From Halorubrum lacusprofundi ATCC 49239 (GTDB taxonomy: Archaea; Halobacteriota; Halobacteria; Halobacteriales; Haloferacaceae), in the NCBI RefSeq assembly GCF_000022205.1, contig NC_012029.1, forward strand, positions 558,001-622,000: a stretch of 64,000 nucleotides of DNA. Direction: 5' to 3'. The position numbers and the translations under genes were made by a program. Position 1 is the first letter of the stretch. Every line of letters starts with the position of its first letter. The notes under the pieces are model-generated. The model was not told the DNA's origin. It saw nothing but the letters and a program-made list of their open reading frames with translations, and made no database searches. Below are positions 1 through 6,426 of the stretch, one piece after another.

Positions 1-2
1 TG

Positions 3-944
3 AACTCGCTGGGCTTCGACGCAGACGCCGGCGGGAACACGCTCGACGCCTACTACGCCGAACTCGGCGGCGTCGCGTTCGACCGGGAGGGTGTCCGACA
101 GCTCAACACGGGCTCCGGCGGCGGGATCTCGGTCGACCGGGAGCTGCTCTACGAGCTCGACTCCGACCTCCACTTGGCGGATCCATGCCTGTTCGTCTCC
201 TTCGACGGATGGGACCAGGGCGACATGGCAGAGGTTCGTGACAACGTCGCGCCGTGGTTCGGCAACGTCTACAGTCGCCGGAACTCTCAGCCGCCGGAGC
301 CGTGTCGCGACGACTACGAGTACTACGGCCTCTGGGAGATCACCGAGCGCGTCGCCGGCGTGTTTCAGGAGTCGGAGCGTTTCGAGGCGCTCGCGGCGGT
401 CCACGACGACCTGATCGAGACGGTGCAGGCGGACCTCCCGCCGACGGAGGAGCGCCCGACGGTCGGCACCCTCCTCTACATGGACGGGACCTACTACCCC
501 TCGCTGCTCGACGACCCAGGATTCGCCAACGCCCACGTGCGCCCCTTCGGCGTGGTCGACGCGTTCGGCGCCGACGACGTGACCTACGAGACCGCCTACG
601 ACCACGAACAGCTACTGGAGGTCGATCCCGACGTGATTCTCCACCAGTACGGAGTCGAGTCCTACTACGACGTGGCTGCGGTCCGCGAGGAACTCGCCGA
701 CCATCCGGTCGCCGGCGAACTCTCCGCGATCGAGAACGACCGGTTCTACCCCTCGGGGAACCCGGTACAGGGGCCGATCATGAACCTCTTCCAGATCGAG
801 ATGACCGCCAAACAGCTGTTCCCCGAGCGGTTCGGTGAGTGGCCGGCCTACGAACTCGGCGACGGCTATCCGGATATCCCCGACGACGAACGGCTCTTCG
901 ACCGCGACCGGGTCGCTGGGATCGTCACCGGTGAGGCGGAATGA
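3..944 (+). CDS. Iron(III)-chelate ABC transporter substrate-binding protein, 5' end outside window
   Basis: This is the C-terminal 313 residues of a FepB/BtuF-like (PF01497 type) periplasmic-binding protein; the start, signal peptide and lipobox lie upstream of the window. It is clearly paralogous to the complete protein at 4111-5358: both share the HLADP block, the SPWFGN/APWFGN block, YYGLWE, EERPT, and the C-terminal run MTAKQL..P..FG.WP.YE.G followed by LFDR.RVA. Its role would be to capture a ferric siderophore or other iron chelate outside the cell and deliver it to the permease at 1909-3081. Its stop overlaps the next start by 4 bp, so the four genes to 3972 form one operon. The substrate is inference; cobalamin or haem are alternatives. 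Confidence 0.85.
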   Translation, partial: NSLGFDADAGGNTLDAYYAELGGVAFDREGVRQLNTGSGGGISVDRELLYELDSDLHLADPCLFVSFDGWDQGDMAEVRDNVAPWFGNVYSRRNSQPPEPCRDDYEYYGLWEITERVAGVFQESERFEALAAVHDDLIETVQADLPPTEERPTVGTLLYMDGTYYPSLLDDPGFANAHVRPFGVVDAFGADDVTYETAYDHEQLLEVDPDVILHQYGVESYYDVAAVREELADHPVAGELSAIENDRFYPSGNPVQGPIMNLFQIEMTAKQLFPERFGEWPAYELGDGYPDIPDDERLFDRDRVAGIVTGEAE

Positions 945-1912
945 GCGGCGGCGTCGATCGCGACGCGGTCGTCACGGGTCTTGACTACGAGGCGGTCGTG
1001 GTCGGCGGCGGCCCCGCCGGCTGCTCGGCCGCCGTCTTCCTCGCCCGCGAGGGGATCGACGTCGCCATGTTCAACCGTGGTCGGTCGTCGATCGCGCGCT
1101 GTGCGCATCTGGGGAACTACCTCGGCTTCCCCGGCGGGATCGACGTCGAGACGTTATACGATCTGATGCACGACCACGTCGAGCGCGCGAGTGGCGAGCT
1201 CGTCGGCGACCTCGTCGAGTCAGTCGAATCGCGGGCGACTGACGACACGGAGGAAGCGCGCTTCCGCGTCACCCCGCAGGAGGGCGAGCCGGTCGCCACC
1301 CGCTGCGTGGTAGCGGCGACCCGATACGACGGGGAGTACCTCCGTGGGCTCGACGACGACGCGGCGATGTTCGAGACCCACGACCACGGCGGCGAGACTC
1401 GCGAGCACTTCGATCGGGAGTACGCCGATCCCGACGGAACGACGCCGATCGACGGGCTCTACGTCGCCTCGCCCTCCGAGGCCGACCGACAGGCGATCAC
1501 GGCGGCCGGACGCGGTGCCCGCGTCGCCCGGCGAGTCGTCACCGACGCGCGAATCGACGATGGCTGGTGGCCCGCGGCGGCCGAGGACGTCGACTGGGTA
1601 CGCCGTGAGGCCGAGCGCGAGGAGGAGTGGGCGGACCGCGATCGGTGGGTCGAGTGGTTCGACCAGCGCCACGCCGACGCCCCGGTCGATCCGGAGTCGG
1701 AGCGGTTCGCGCGCGTTCGCGAGGCCGCTATCGACGAGACGCTGGCGTCGTACGTCGACGCCGACGAGGCCGAGGAACAAGCGGCCGAGGGTGGGCGCGC
1801 GCTCGCCGATCACCTCGACCCGCGCGCCGTCGTCGACGCACACGGCGCCGAGGCCCTGCTCGACGCAATGGATGACGAAGATATCGCCGCGTACGGCGCG
1901 AGGGCGCGATGA
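941..1912 (+). CDS. Thioredoxin-reductase-like FAD oxidoreductase of the iron-uptake operon
   Basis: This 323-residue flavoprotein has an N-terminal dinucleotide-binding motif (GGGPAG, around residues 23-28) and the LGFPGG segment typical of the thioredoxin reductase fold, but no CxxC redox pair, so it is not a classical thioredoxin reductase. A charged helical tail of about 100 residues follows the core. The start ATG overlaps the stop of the binding protein (ATGA) and its own stop overlaps the permease start in the same way, showing tight translational coupling. A paralogue at 5587-6426 sits next to the second binding protein. I infer a cytoplasmic ferric-chelate reductase or a similar step that releases iron after import; the sequence alone does not prove that. 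Confidence 0.8.
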   Translation: MSGGVDRDAVVTGLDYEAVVVGGGPAGCSAAVFLAREGIDVAMFNRGRSSIARCAHLGNYLGFPGGIDVETLYDLMHDHVERASGELVGDLVESVESRATDDTEEARFRVTPQEGEPVATRCVVAATRYDGEYLRGLDDDAAMFETHDHGGETREHFDREYADPDGTTPIDGLYVASPSEADRQAITAAGRGARVARRVVTDARIDDGWWPAAAEDVDWVRREAEREEEWADRDRWVEWFDQRHADAPVDPESERFARVREAAIDETLASYVDADEAEEQAAEGGRALADHLDPRAVVDAHGAEALLDAMDDEDIAAYGARAR

Positions 1913-3081
1913 GCAACAGTGGGTCGGTCGCCGGCGGGGACGCCGCCCGCCGATCGTCGGAGGGGCGGATCGGGTGGCTGTTCGACCCCAAGTTGGTCTC
2001 TGTCGCGCTCGCGAGCGTCGCGGTCGTCGTCGTCGCCGGGCTCGTACAGATCAGCTTCGGCGCGTACTCGATGACGGTCGGTGAGGCGTGGCGCGCCGTT
2101 CTCGATCCCGCGGTCCTCCTCGATCCCCGCTGGCTGCTGAACTTCTTCGTCGGCGAGGGACTGATGCGCTCGATCACCGGGTTTCAAGGGGAGCTCCCCG
2201 AACTGGCACACGGAACGCTCATCGTCTGGAACATCCGTCTCCCGCGGGTGTTCGTCGCCGCCATCGTCGGGATGAACCTCGGCGTCTCGGGAGCCATCTT
2301 CCAGGCGGTCACCAGAAACGAGCTCGCGAGCCCGTTCATCCTCGGCGTCTCCTCGGGCGCGGGGTTGATGATCCTGTTGACGCTCGTGGTGTTCGGGGGA
2401 CTCTCGGCGTTCCTCCCGCTGATCGCGGCGCTCGGCGGCGCGGTCGCGTTCCTGGTCGTCTACGCGATCGCGTGGAAGAACGGGACGAGCCCGGTTCGAC
2501 TCGTGCTCGCGGGCGTGATCGTCGGGACCGTGTTCAGCAGCCTCCAGACGGGGCTGTTCTTCTTCGCGGACGACATCGGCGTCGTCCAGTCGGCGATCCA
2601 GTGGACCACCGGCTCGCTGACCGGGACGGACTGGGAGCAGGTCCGACTGGTGCTGCCGTGGACGATCGTCGCGGTGCTGCTGTCGATCGCCGGATCGCGC
2701 CAGCTGAACCTCCTCCTGTTGGGCGAACAGACCGCGAAGTCGCTCGGGATGTCGATCGAGAAGGTGCGGTTCGCGCTCTCCGGCGTCGCCGTGCTGGCGG
2801 CCGCCGCCAGCATCGCGGTGGCGGGGATCGTCAGCTTCGTGGGACTGATCGTCCCCCACATGGTGCGAAACCTCGTCGGCAGCGACTACAAGCGGGTGAT
2901 CGTCGGTTGTCTGTTCGTCGGCCCCGCGCTCATGGTCGGGGCTGACGTAGGCGCCCGACTCGGGATGAGCGTGATCACGGGCGCGGACTCGCAGATCCCG
3001 GTGGGGATCGTCACCGGGCTGGTCGGCGGCCCGTACTTCCTGTACCTGATGCGCAAACAGCAGAACATGGGTGAGCTCTGA
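1909..3081 (+). CDS. FecCD-family iron(III)-chelate ABC transporter permease
   Basis: A 390-residue integral membrane protein of the FecCD/BtuC family. After a short hydrophilic N-terminus there are about ten hydrophobic segments. The segment IRLPRVFVAAIVGMNLGVSG with the following FQAVTRNELASPF is the family signature, and GIVSFVGLIVPHMVR is the conserved C-terminal coupling region. There is no second permease gene, so the transporter presumably uses a homodimer. It lies third in the operon with ATGA overlap to the flavoprotein, and the ATPase starts directly after its stop codon. Function as the membrane channel for ferric chelate is well supported by family; the exact chelate is not known. 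Confidence 0.93.
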   Translation: MSNSGSVAGGDAARRSSEGRIGWLFDPKLVSVALASVAVVVVAGLVQISFGAYSMTVGEAWRAVLDPAVLLDPRWLLNFFVGEGLMRSITGFQGELPELAHGTLIVWNIRLPRVFVAAIVGMNLGVSGAIFQAVTRNELASPFILGVSSGAGLMILLTLVVFGGLSAFLPLIAALGGAVAFLVVYAIAWKNGTSPVRLVLAGVIVGTVFSSLQTGLFFFADDIGVVQSAIQWTTGSLTGTDWEQVRLVLPWTIVAVLLSIAGSRQLNLLLLGEQTAKSLGMSIEKVRFALSGVAVLAAAASIAVAGIVSFVGLIVPHMVRNLVGSDYKRVIVGCLFVGPALMVGADVGARLGMSVITGADSQIPVGIVTGLVGGPYFLYLMRKQQNMGEL

Positions 3082-3972
3082 ATGTCTACCGAACACGCGA
3101 ACGCGACGGATTCGGAGGTACCGAGCGGAACGACCGACGCGAGCGAGACGGTCGATTCGGTCGGCGCGGGAGACGCGAGCGCTCTCGACGCCGAGAGCCT
3201 CGTGTTGGGGTATCCGAACGCACCGGCTCCCGTCATCGACGGCGAGTCGATCGCGGCCGAGCCCGGCGCGGTCACGGCCCTCGTCGGCCCGAACGGCTCG
3301 GGGAAGAGCACCCTGTTGAAGGGGTTGGCGACGCAGCTCGCGCCGGACGACGGCTCCGTGATGGTCGACGGCCGCGACGTGCATGCGATGGACACGAAGG
3401 CGCTCGCCCGGAAGCTCGGGCTGCTCTCGCAGGAGAGCACCTCGCCGAACAGCATCACGGTCGATGACTTGGTGTACCACGGTCGGTACCCGCACCGCGG
3501 GTTCTTCGAGCGGACGACCGACGAGGACGCGCGCGCCGTCGAGCAAGCGATCGAACTGGCCGGCTGCGGCCACCTGCGCGAGCGCGAGGTCGGGAGCCTC
3601 AGCGGCGGGCAGAAACAGTTGGCGTGGATCGCGATGGTCCTCGCACAGGAAACCGACGTACTCCTCTTAGACGAGCCGACGACGTTCCTCGATTTACACC
3701 ACCAGATGGAGGTGATGGAGATCATCGAAACCCTGCGCGACGAGAGCGACGTGACCGTCGTCGTCGTGCTCCACGACATCGAGCAGGCCGCCCGGCTCGC
3801 GGATCGGATGGTCGCGCTCAAGGACGGCGAGATCCGTGCCCGCGGCGCCCCCGAGGAGATCGTCACCGAGGACCTGCTCGCGGACGTGTTCCGCGTCGAC
3901 GCCGACGTGGTACAGACCGAGAACGGCCCGCGCGTCACCCCGCTTCGGGCGCGACACGAAGACACAGAGTAG
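3082..3972 (+). CDS. FecE-type ABC transporter ATP-binding protein
   Basis: A 296-residue ABC ATPase that powers the permease encoded just upstream. After an unusual acidic N-terminal extension of about 35 residues come Walker A (GPNGSGKST), the Q-loop (LLSQE), the ABC signature (LSGGQKQ), Walker B with catalytic Glu (LLLDEPTTFLDLHHQ) and the switch His (VLHDIEQA). The start ATG follows the permease stop with no gap. It is the last gene of the first operon; 138 bp then separate it from the second binding-protein gene, which has its own promoter. The single ATPase and permease probably serve both binding proteins. Confidence 0.93.
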   Translation: MSTEHANATDSEVPSGTTDASETVDSVGAGDASALDAESLVLGYPNAPAPVIDGESIAAEPGAVTALVGPNGSGKSTLLKGLATQLAPDDGSVMVDGRDVHAMDTKALARKLGLLSQESTSPNSITVDDLVYHGRYPHRGFFERTTDEDARAVEQAIELAGCGHLREREVGSLSGGQKQLAWIAMVLAQETDVLLLDEPTTFLDLHHQMEVMEIIETLRDESDVTVVVVLHDIEQAARLADRMVALKDGEIRARGAPEEIVTEDLLADVFRVDADVVQTENGPRVTPLRARHEDTE

Positions 3973-4055: not shown

Positions 4056-4071
4056 TTTAGGTGGGCCTAAA
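4056..4071. promoter_or_regulatory. Upstream palindromic operator, probable metal-dependent repressor site
   Basis: The sequence TTTAGG-TGGG-CCTAAA is a perfect 6-4-6 inverted repeat. It matches the half-site TTTAGG/CCTAAA of the second palindrome at 4089-4110, and the centres of the two are 36 bp apart. It resembles the TTAGG...CCTAA boxes of DtxR/IdeR/Idr-type iron repressors. Its place upstream of the TATA box suggests two cooperating repressor dimers. Assignment of the regulator is inference. Confidence 0.65.
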
Positions 4072-4088
4072 GACCGGAACGACTATAT

Positions 4089-4110
4089 ATTTTTAGGCCC
4101 GCCTAAAAAT
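4089..4110. promoter_or_regulatory. Start-proximal palindromic operator overlapping the promoter
   Basis: A perfect palindrome with 10-bp arms (ATTTTTAGGC and GCCTAAAAAT) around a CC centre ends exactly at the ATG of the binding-protein gene at 4111. A TATA-like run (tatatat, 4084-4090) abuts its left edge at about -25, so the mRNA is probably leaderless and the operator covers the transcription start. A bound repressor would block both TFB/TBP and polymerase. The half-site is the same as at 4056-4071. Iron-dependent control is inferred from the box shape and the gene it controls. Confidence 0.75.
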
Positions 4111-5358
4111 ATGCCCAGAGACGACGCGGTACGCAGAGCATCGACCCGAAGAGCGTTCGCCAAGTACGGCGGCACTGTCGCTCTCGGCGGCTTACTCGCC
4201 GGTTGCACCGACGGCGGCGGCGCCGGTTCGTCCGACTCCGATTCGCCCGACGCCGACACGACCGACACCGGTTCGACCGACGACGACCGGGCGGAGTCAC
4301 AGACCGAGGACGCCGCCGATGCGAGCTACACGGCGTCGATCTCGCCGATGGGCGAGGTGATCTTCGAGTCGCCGCCGGAGACGGTGTTCACGCGGCTCAC
4401 CCATCACGCGGACATGGCGTTCGCGCTGGGCCGGGGGAACGACGTCACGGCGCTGCACGCGCCCGACTACTACGACGGGCTCTGGAACCAGTACGTCGAG
4501 CGCCTGCCGGGCGTCTCGCTCGACTGGTCGGGACTCTACTCCTCGTGGCAGCCGGACAAGGAGAAGCTGTACGAGCTCGACAGCGACATCCACCTCGCGG
4601 ACCCGGCGTGGGTGACGCAGGTCGAGGGTTGGGAGCGGTCGGACATCGACGAGATCGCCGAGAACGTCTCGCCGTGGTTCGGCAACTCCCTCAGCGACCG
4701 GCATCAGGAGCCCGCCGAGGAGTGGGCCGACGGCTACCAGTACTACGGGCTGTGGGAGCAGTTCGAAATCGTCGCCGAGGCGTTCCGAGAGCGCGAGCGC
4801 TACGAAGCGCTCGCAGCGGTCCGCGAGGAACTCCTGTCGACGATCGAGGACAACCTGCCGCCGGAGGAGGAGCGCCCGACCGCGATCATGATCGCCGCCG
4901 CCGACATCGAGAGCATCTACGCGTACACCCTGAGCAACCCCGGGTTCCTCACGTCACACACACGCCCGCTCGGGCCGCGAGACGCGTTCGAGGGGAGCGT
5001 CGAGTCCGGCACCGTCGTCGACTTCGAGACGATCCTCGAGGCGGACCCCGACGTAATCTTATACCTCGGCGGTATGGAGCCGGGAACGGACATGGCTGGG
5101 CGGCGCACCGCTTTCGAGGAGGACGCCGTCGGCTCTGAGATCACGGCGGTTCAGAACGACCGCGTCCATCCACAAGGCGCCCGGTATCAGGGACCGATCT
5201 TGAACCTCTTCCAGCTGGAGATGACGGCGAAGCAGCTCTACCCCGACGCGTTCGGCGCGTGGCCGCGGTACGAGTCCGGCCCGTATCCGGAGATTCCGAC
5301 CGACGAACAGCTGTTCGACCGCGAGCGCGTCGCGGACGTCATCAACGGGGACCCGTAG
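4111..5358 (+). CDS. Iron(III)-chelate substrate-binding lipoprotein (second paralogue)
   Basis: A 415-residue binding protein of the FepB/BtuF class. The N-terminus has a twin-arginine motif (STRRAFAKYGG, residues 11-21) and a lipobox ending in Cys32 (LLAGC), then an Asp/Ser/Thr-rich linker of about 40 residues typical of haloarchaeal surface lipoproteins. The rest is colinear with the partial protein at 3-944. The start at 4111 is chosen because the operator and TATA box end there and because it begins the export signal; a longer frame exists upstream but lacks both. It is transcribed alone or with 5587-6426, and is expected to be derepressed under iron limitation. Confidence 0.9.
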   Translation: MPRDDAVRRASTRRAFAKYGGTVALGGLLAGCTDGGGAGSSDSDSPDADTTDTGSTDDDRAESQTEDAADASYTASISPMGEVIFESPPETVFTRLTHHADMAFALGRGNDVTALHAPDYYDGLWNQYVERLPGVSLDWSGLYSSWQPDKEKLYELDSDIHLADPAWVTQVEGWERSDIDEIAENVSPWFGNSLSDRHQEPAEEWADGYQYYGLWEQFEIVAEAFRERERYEALAAVREELLSTIEDNLPPEEERPTAIMIAAADIESIYAYTLSNPGFLTSHTRPLGPRDAFEGSVESGTVVDFETILEADPDVILYLGGMEPGTDMAGRRTAFEEDAVGSEITAVQNDRVHPQGARYQGPILNLFQLEMTAKQLYPDAFGAWPRYESGPYPEIPTDEQLFDRERVADVINGDP

Positions 5359-5586: not shown

Positions 5587-6426
5587 ATGAGCGGTGACCG
5601 GACACCGAGCGATTCAGAGCGCGATTCGCACGACTTCCGCGACGTGGTCGTCGTCGGCGGCGGCGTCGCCGGCCTCTCGACGGCCGTGTTCACGGCCCGG
5701 CAGGGGCTCGACACTCTCGTAATCGACGACGGCGGGTCGCTCCTGCGGCGGAACGCGCACTTGGAGAACTTCCCGGGCTTCCCGCTGGGCGTGGACGCCC
5801 GGCGCCTGCTCGACCTCCTCGCCGAGCAGGCCGCGACCGCGGGCGCCGACCGGTTCGACGGCCGTGCGACGCGAGTGGCGGCGGTCGGTGAGGGCGAGAG
5901 CGTCGAAACCGGAGGCGACGAAGCGGTCGACGACGCCCGGTTCGTCGTTGAGGTCGACGGTGACGACGCGGACGACCCCAGCGACCCCAGCGACCCGACC
6001 CGAACCCGGCACGTCGTCGCCGCGACGAAAAACGAGGTCGGTTACCTCGAGGGCGTGGAGGGGGTCGGTATCCTCGACCGCGGCAAGTCGTACGTCGACA
6101 CCGACGAGCGCGGCCGAACCGGCGTCGACGGGCTGTACGCGGCCGGCCGGCTCGCGGAGAAGCCGCATCAGGCCGCGGTGTGCGCGGGCCACGGCGCCGA
6201 GGTCGGCGTGACGATCTTAGAGGAGGACGAACGAGGGTTCTACCACGACTGGGTCGCACCCGAGGGGTACTTCACCGACCGGGGCCGGCAGGTGCCGCCG
6301 GGCTGCGAGGAGATCGATGCGGCCGAGCGCCGCGAACGCGAGGAAGCGTCGCGCGAAGCGATCCGAGAACGGTTCGCGGCGCCGCACCCGGACCCGCAGG
6401 AAACGCACCCGAGCTTAGAGGAGTGA
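5587..6426 (+). CDS. Thioredoxin-reductase-like FAD oxidoreductase (second paralogue)
   Basis: A 279-residue flavoprotein paralogous to 941-1912. It has the FAD motif GGGVAGLSTAVF (about residues 23-34), the LENFPGFPLG segment, and VDGLYAAGRLAEKPHQAAVCAGHG-type cofactor-binding residues in the C-terminal half, again with no CxxC disulphide. It is shorter than its paralogue because the C-terminal charged tail is reduced. It follows the second binding protein after 228 bp in which I see only a weak TATA-like tttatta near 5408. The repeated pairing of a binding protein with this flavoprotein argues that its job is linked to the imported chelate. Confidence 0.75.
   Translation: MSGDRTPSDSERDSHDFRDVVVVGGGVAGLSTAVFTARQGLDTLVIDDGGSLLRRNAHLENFPGFPLGVDARRLLDLLAEQAATAGADRFDGRATRVAAVGEGESVETGGDEAVDDARFVVEVDGDDADDPSDPSDPTRTRHVVAATKNEVGYLEGVEGVGILDRGKSYVDTDERGRTGVDGLYAAGRLAEKPHQAAVCAGHGAEVGVTILEEDERGFYHDWVAPEGYFTDRGRQVPPGCEEIDAAERREREEASREAIRERFAAPHPDPQETHPSLEE

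Follow-up and report, generated by a model that had tools for sequence, protein, structure and literature searches.

Twin palindromes around the promoter of a ferric-chelate binding-protein gene in Halorubrum lacusprofundi are probable operators of a DtxR-family iron repressor

A regulatory signal of the DtxR family (FerR/TroR/SirR/Idr) has been described in haloarchaea by Leyn and Rodionov 2015, Schmid 2011, Martinez-Pastor 2017 and Martinez Pastor 2024, given here as portrayed in papers that cite them. For example, the DtxR/FerR regulon signal has been placed before fhu operons (PMC11349517, citing Leyn and Rodionov 2015), and for Haloferax volcanii a 2024 study cited in PMC11349517 assigns the role of primary iron regulator to TroR. 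The two palindromes of H. lacusprofundi ATCC 49239 that we analysed resemble this signal, as far as it is portrayed there, in that they stand before siderophore ABC transporter genes in a genome with DtxR proteins; the comparison covers the setting. Both lie in the window, the 64,000-nucleotide stretch of DNA that was analysed (C2:558001-622000), which belongs to a genome of 3.69 Mb in three contigs. The TroR motif reportedly lies some 100 nt ahead of start codons; here, the core of the downstream palindrome ends 4 nt from the ATG.

The half-sites TTAGG...CCTAA are also those of the bacterial DtxR/IdeR iron boxes, and at bacterial DtxR/IdeR promoters more than one dimer is common. Unlike the haloarchaeal pairs with their most frequent spacing of 36 bp, the bacterial pairs peaked at 22 bp (9/36) and at 42-44 bp (8/36) among the matches listed, and the haloarchaeal pair further differs from them in that its operators enclose a BRE-TATA core promoter. 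Marine group II/III archaea have the same core motif, likewise paired, but with two spacing peaks among the matches listed, 34 bp (8/27) and 43-44 bp (10/27). These two peaks (e.g. L075, L123, L143) are about one helical turn apart. A search of titles and abstracts, which did not cover the primary motif studies, found no description of twin operators around a haloarchaeal core promoter. The sites are very probably a clean instance of the known haloarchaeal iron signal, and what may be new about them is how they bracket the promoter.

The preliminary description of this DNA had reported two palindromes in front of the binding-protein gene, and the sequence confirmed both where they had been placed (Table 1). 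The upstream operator (op1) and the downstream operator (op2) are two copies of TTTAGG-n4-CCTAAA with a centre distance of 36 bp, and when the window was scanned with up to two mismatches they were the only 2 matches, a number attained in 2 of 100 shuffled versions of the window. The op2 palindrome is perfect, as had been claimed, but it is longer than the 10-2-10 first given: the arms are of 12 bases around the 2-base centre, so that the palindrome takes in the first two bases of the ATG. It does adjoin the TATA, which lies 5' of it, and the ATG of a gene whose product matches Peripla_BP_2. The further claim, that the centre spacing comes close to an integral number of helical turns, was wrong. 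With 10.5 bp to a turn, 36 bp makes 3.43 turns, which rules out that both dimers share one face of the DNA and would place them near opposite faces.

Table 1. Positions of the operators, the core promoter, the neighbouring genes, all exact sites of the genome and the candidate regulators. Plain numbers are window positions; C2 marks contig positions.
Feature	Position	Strand	Details
op1, upstream operator TTTAGGTGGGCCTAAA	4056..4071	.	exact TTTAGG-TGGG-CCTAAA; centre ~47 bp 5' of ATG
BRE-TATA-like core promoter element CCGGAACGACTATA	4074..4087	+	matrix score 12.9
Perfect 12-2-12 palindrome containing op2	4087..4112	.	last two bases = A, T of start codon
op2, downstream operator TTTAGGCCCGCCTAAA	4092..4107	.	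between TATA and ATG
SBP2, target gene, lipoprotein-type ferric-chelate binding protein	4111..5358	+	415 aa; PF01497 Peripla_BP_2, E 8.6e-11
SBP1, paralogous binding protein, 3' part	1..944	+	gene start outside window, C2:557658
FAD/NAD(P)-dependent oxidoreductase (flavoprotein) behind SBP1	941..1912	+	
FecCD-type permease	1909..3081	+	PF01032, E 3.7e-84
ABC transporter ATPase	3082..3972	+	PF00005
FAD/NAD(P)-dependent oxidoreductase downstream of SBP2	5587..6426	+	
Site	C2:169118		before UPF0104-type membrane protein
Site	C2:170359		before RGP protein
Site	C2:171587		before SBP_bac_8 binding protein
Site	C2:176252		before glycosyltransferase 2 (GT2)
Site	C2:178404		between gluconate-dehydrogenase-subunit/GMC pair and BPD_transp permease; shared with divergent gene
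Site	C2:490921		before ABC ATPase with TOBE_2
Site	C2:556331		before small ORF
Pair	C2:557603/557639		before SBP1
Pair	C2:562057/562093		before SBP2
L028, DtxR-family protein	C2:673787-674443		219 aa; PF01325, PF02742, FeoA
L029, DtxR-family protein	C2:185205-185642		146 aa; PF01325, weaker PF02742; Cys-rich CPDC...CAC tail

SBP1 is 46% identical to SBP2 and did not itself match any Pfam family at E 0.001. Its own operator pair, likewise 36 bp apart, has SBP1 on one side and a divergent ferritin-like (Dps) gene on the other. This location bears on the reading of the palindromes as terminators of the upstream ABC gene or as mRNA hairpins. T runs flank the second palindrome and would suit that reading, but between the divergent Dps and SBP1 genes there is nothing to terminate. 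At SBP2 the sites enclose the TATA, and the ATG comes only a few bases later, which puts the sites ahead of the inferred transcript start. The terminator or hairpin was therefore rejected, and we regard it as extremely improbable.

The genome scan that the preliminary description had proposed was run. The results showed 11 exact matches of TTAGGNNNNCCTAA in the genome, 10 of which also match TTTAGGNNNNCCTAAA, and 0 matches of the reversed control of either pattern. A first-order Markov model of the window gave an expected TTAGGNNNNCCTAA count of 0.19 per genome. A chance origin of the sites was rejected. When one mismatch was allowed, only 3 further matches were found in the genome, compared with 40 for the control pattern. 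All 11 exact sites are on contig C2 in nine promoter regions, seven of which have a single site. By ORF calls that are crude around these sites, some of the ORFs being false, iron-type transporter genes stand behind five of the nine regions (SBP1 and SBP2 of the Fec type, SBP_bac_8, the BPD_transp permease and the ABC ATPase with TOBE_2), which links the sites to such genes. In the other four regions, the genes that follow (UPF0104, RGP, GT2 and the small ORF) have no evident function in iron metabolism. A UPF0104 protein of H. volcanii, possibly not an orthologue of the one here, is given in PMC11349517 as 11.6-fold up in iron starvation. The region C2:169118-178511 (locus L011), outside the window, holds five TTAGG-CCTAA sites in 10 kb. 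To judge from these sites, its glycan-like cluster (UPF0104, RGP, SBP_bac_8, GT2, GMC/permease) is apparently in the iron regulon.

The sites are also widespread among relatives. The single-site motif occurs in all of the 97 sampled genomes of the class; pairs 21-51 bp apart were found in 64/97, and pairs 52-82 bp apart in 5/97 of the same genomes, the forward-column sums being 133 and 5 pairs, respectively. Among 391 class genomes, 256 have pairs 21-51 bp apart (control matches 0), and 183 of the 391, from 50 of 86 genera, have a pair spaced exactly 36 bp. Exact pairs 21-51 bp apart were lacking in 135/391 class genomes, and 12 of the 46 genomes of the same genus had no 36-bp pair. Spacing was counted in sampled loci (at least 119 stretches) after removal of exact duplicates: among the matches listed, it was 34-37 bp in 70 of 80 distinct haloarchaeal pairs and exactly 36 bp in 46 of them. 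When the pairs were grouped into clusters below 70% identity, 34-37 bp was kept in 51/60 and exactly 36 bp in 28/60, and recent duplication of one promoter is hence unlikely as the whole cause. Haloarchaea have a second spacing class of 27-29 bp (L050, L059, L071, L121, L169). The proteins behind these pairs have starts that resemble the RGP-type protein of this genome, and a sixth case, L145, differs.

The pairs were also oriented by their genes. This set consists of 42 of 82 haloarchaeal pairs (2 from this genome), namely those with an ATG within 20 nt and a spacing of 34-37 bp; pairs with a start further off, with no ORF of 100 aa, with another spacing or in a cut locus were left out. The genes that start behind the 42 pairs encode Peripla_BP_2 proteins in 21 cases and aminotransferases of class III in 3, these being diaminobutyrate-2-oxoglutarate transaminases. 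The H. volcanii gene dat belongs to a six-gene siderophore cluster, according to PMC7407949. DUF5059 proteins (7/42) and plastocyanin-type copper-binding domains (Copper-bind, 5/42) also start directly behind twin operators. From this position it is possible that the two groups are iron-sparing or iron-reducing proteins.

The geometry of the pair points to the core promoter. In the 22-base spacer of 74 distinct haloarchaeal 36-bp pairs there is a strong element, YCGAAR followed after a few bases by TTWTA, which we take to be BRE plus TATA; this set was oriented by the spacer itself, so that the CG and TATA columns are somewhat favoured. The gene-oriented set yields the same element, but the sources of the two sets overlap. 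A BRE-TATA matrix built from the 74 pairs, below 6.8 for 99% of random 25-mers, picks out CCGGAACGACTATA here, 3 nt after the 14-mer of op1 and 5 nt before that of op2, with the ATG 4 nt after op2. Among the gene-oriented pairs, all 26 with a spacing of 36 bp have gaps of 3 nt from op1 to the element and 5 nt from the element to op2. The two gaps are 1 and 5 nt for 7 of the 9 pairs with 34 bp, and 3 and 4 nt (4/7) or 2 and 5 nt (3/7) for those with 35 bp. Since op2 is thus nearly fixed relative to the TATA and op1 has slight slack, the spacing follows the core promoter. The operator spacing therefore seems, from these alignments, to be set by the BRE-TATA between the operators and not by helical phasing. 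At single sites, the BRE-TATA register is weak. Among the 42 oriented pairs, which were selected for an ATG within 20 nt, 38 have a distance of 4-8 nt from the op2 14-mer to the ATG. Such a distance fits a leaderless transcript, and leaderless transcripts are common in haloarchaea.

The gap from op1 to the BRE is 1-3 nt in nearly all oriented pairs, and archaeal activators act at a position abutting the BRE. One could thus assume that repression is exerted at op2, and that op1 serves for activation or fine-tuning and helps to recruit TFB/TBP under some condition; the single sites in seven of this genome's nine promoter regions would agree with such a division. However, a dimer bound this close to the BRE should rather get in the way of TFB, and the twin promoters belong mainly to uptake genes, where iron repression is the usual logic. 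We consider an activating role of op1 improbable, and we prefer repression from both operators.

Strong PF01325 matches were found in two proteins of the genome, L028 and L029. When these were aligned with two solved DtxR-family chains and compared at the positions that we presumed to be metal ligands, L028 was found to keep them, while most of them are lost in L029 and also in the short DtxR proteins that relatives encode. L028, with its intact metal site, is our first choice for the protein predicted to act at the operators, and L029 may sense something other than free metal. The choice between them by co-occurrence failed. Both types are universal in the class genomes (97/97 each), so co-occurrence cannot single out the binder.

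The universal presence of both types is also what would be expected if op1 and op2 served the two paralogues, the metal-sensing L028 and the degraded-site L029, side by side in repression. The loss of most metal-ligand positions from L029 and its Cys-rich tail agree with such a division of labour, and Schmid 2011 reportedly found Idr1 and Idr2 bound close together, with both of them required at some promoters. Furthermore, the half-sites are asymmetric. A central purine is present in 125/148 half-sites facing away from the TATA compared with 71/148 facing it, and after clustering in 72/86 compared with 43/86. Against this, the asymmetry is mirror-like, and one repressor on a symmetric clamp could give the same; at the strictest clustering (18 clusters) it is not significant (p = 0.08). 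Moreover, the invariant core is identical in op1 and op2, as the design of the search required, and neither L028 nor L029 is assigned to either operator. Joint repression by the two paralogues is possible, but we think it rather unlikely, and an iron-sensing repressor very probably binds both sites.

Another question is whether the palindromes are recognised by a DtxR-family protein at all. DtxR binding in this organism is a prediction from sequence, which leaves room for a factor of another kind. But TTAGG...CCTAA is the classic DtxR half-site, and among the matches listed, 10 of 70 unrelated, non-haloarchaeal loci have a DtxR-like gene whose start is no more than 250 bp downstream of the paired motif. 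In addition, Haloferax fhu operons carry the ferR signal in print (PMC11349517, citing the DtxR-regulon study). A non-DtxR factor is accordingly very improbable in our opinion. The preliminary description had proposed a DtxR-family iron repressor, and this proposal is upheld by the link to iron-type transporters, the two DtxR genes and the DtxR-like genes behind pairs; only its same-face argument is lost.

No DtxR-like gene was found within 250 bp downstream of a pair in the 49 named haloarchaeal loci among the matches listed, and a short DtxR gene lies about 240-1100 bp behind the pair in several haloarchaeal loci. In Halorubrum salipaludis WN019 (L152), whose flanks are 86-93% identical to the genome studied here, a short DtxR gene (L152:4962-5399) starts 4 nt behind a single operator. 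This gene is absent from the collinear place in our genome (L013:8265-8306), where there is a gap of 40 bp as against 628 bp, and a search of our genome for the protein found only L028 and L029, at 35-37% identity. The short DtxR of H. salipaludis is thus ruled out as a regulator needed here, and that protein is dispensable for keeping the operators.

In this study, we believe it very likely that the two palindromes are operators of a metal-dependent DtxR-family repressor, whose dimers would clamp the core promoter under iron sufficiency. When iron is sufficient, one repressor dimer would occupy op2, between the TATA and the start codon, and a second would occupy op1, just upstream of the BRE. 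The two dimers would clamp the core promoter from both sides, and the assembly of TBP, TFB and RNA polymerase would be blocked. When iron is short, the repressor would be released, and SBP2 would be transcribed as a leaderless mRNA. The sites, their rarity, their association with transporter genes across the genome, the BRE-TATA that they enclose and the spacing favoured throughout the class were observed in the sequences. What we infer in this scheme are the binding, iron as the signal, a repressing and not an activating effect, the start of transcription and the acting DtxR protein.

We also speculated, as an unlikely extension, that haloarchaea share a transferable cassette of fixed geometry, in which two DtxR dimers would close on the TBP/TFB site from either side and from nearly opposite faces, the pair being read jointly by the metal-sensing DtxR and the paralogue that has lost its metal site. 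In order, this geometry comprises an operator, a gap of 3 nt, the BRE-TATA, a gap of 5 nt, the second operator, a gap of about 4-5 nt and the ATG of a predicted leaderless transcript. Joint reading by both DtxR paralogues, if true, would explain why both are kept in every genome.

The clamping of the core promoter, if true, would be a distinct mode of archaeal repression. The arrangement amounts to a class-wide quantitative promoter rule, in which two operators, mostly 36 bp apart, bracket the BRE-TATA. This rule makes the geometry of archaeal repression directly testable, and it flags candidate iron genes, including the glycan-like gene cluster and the DUF5059 lipoprotein family.
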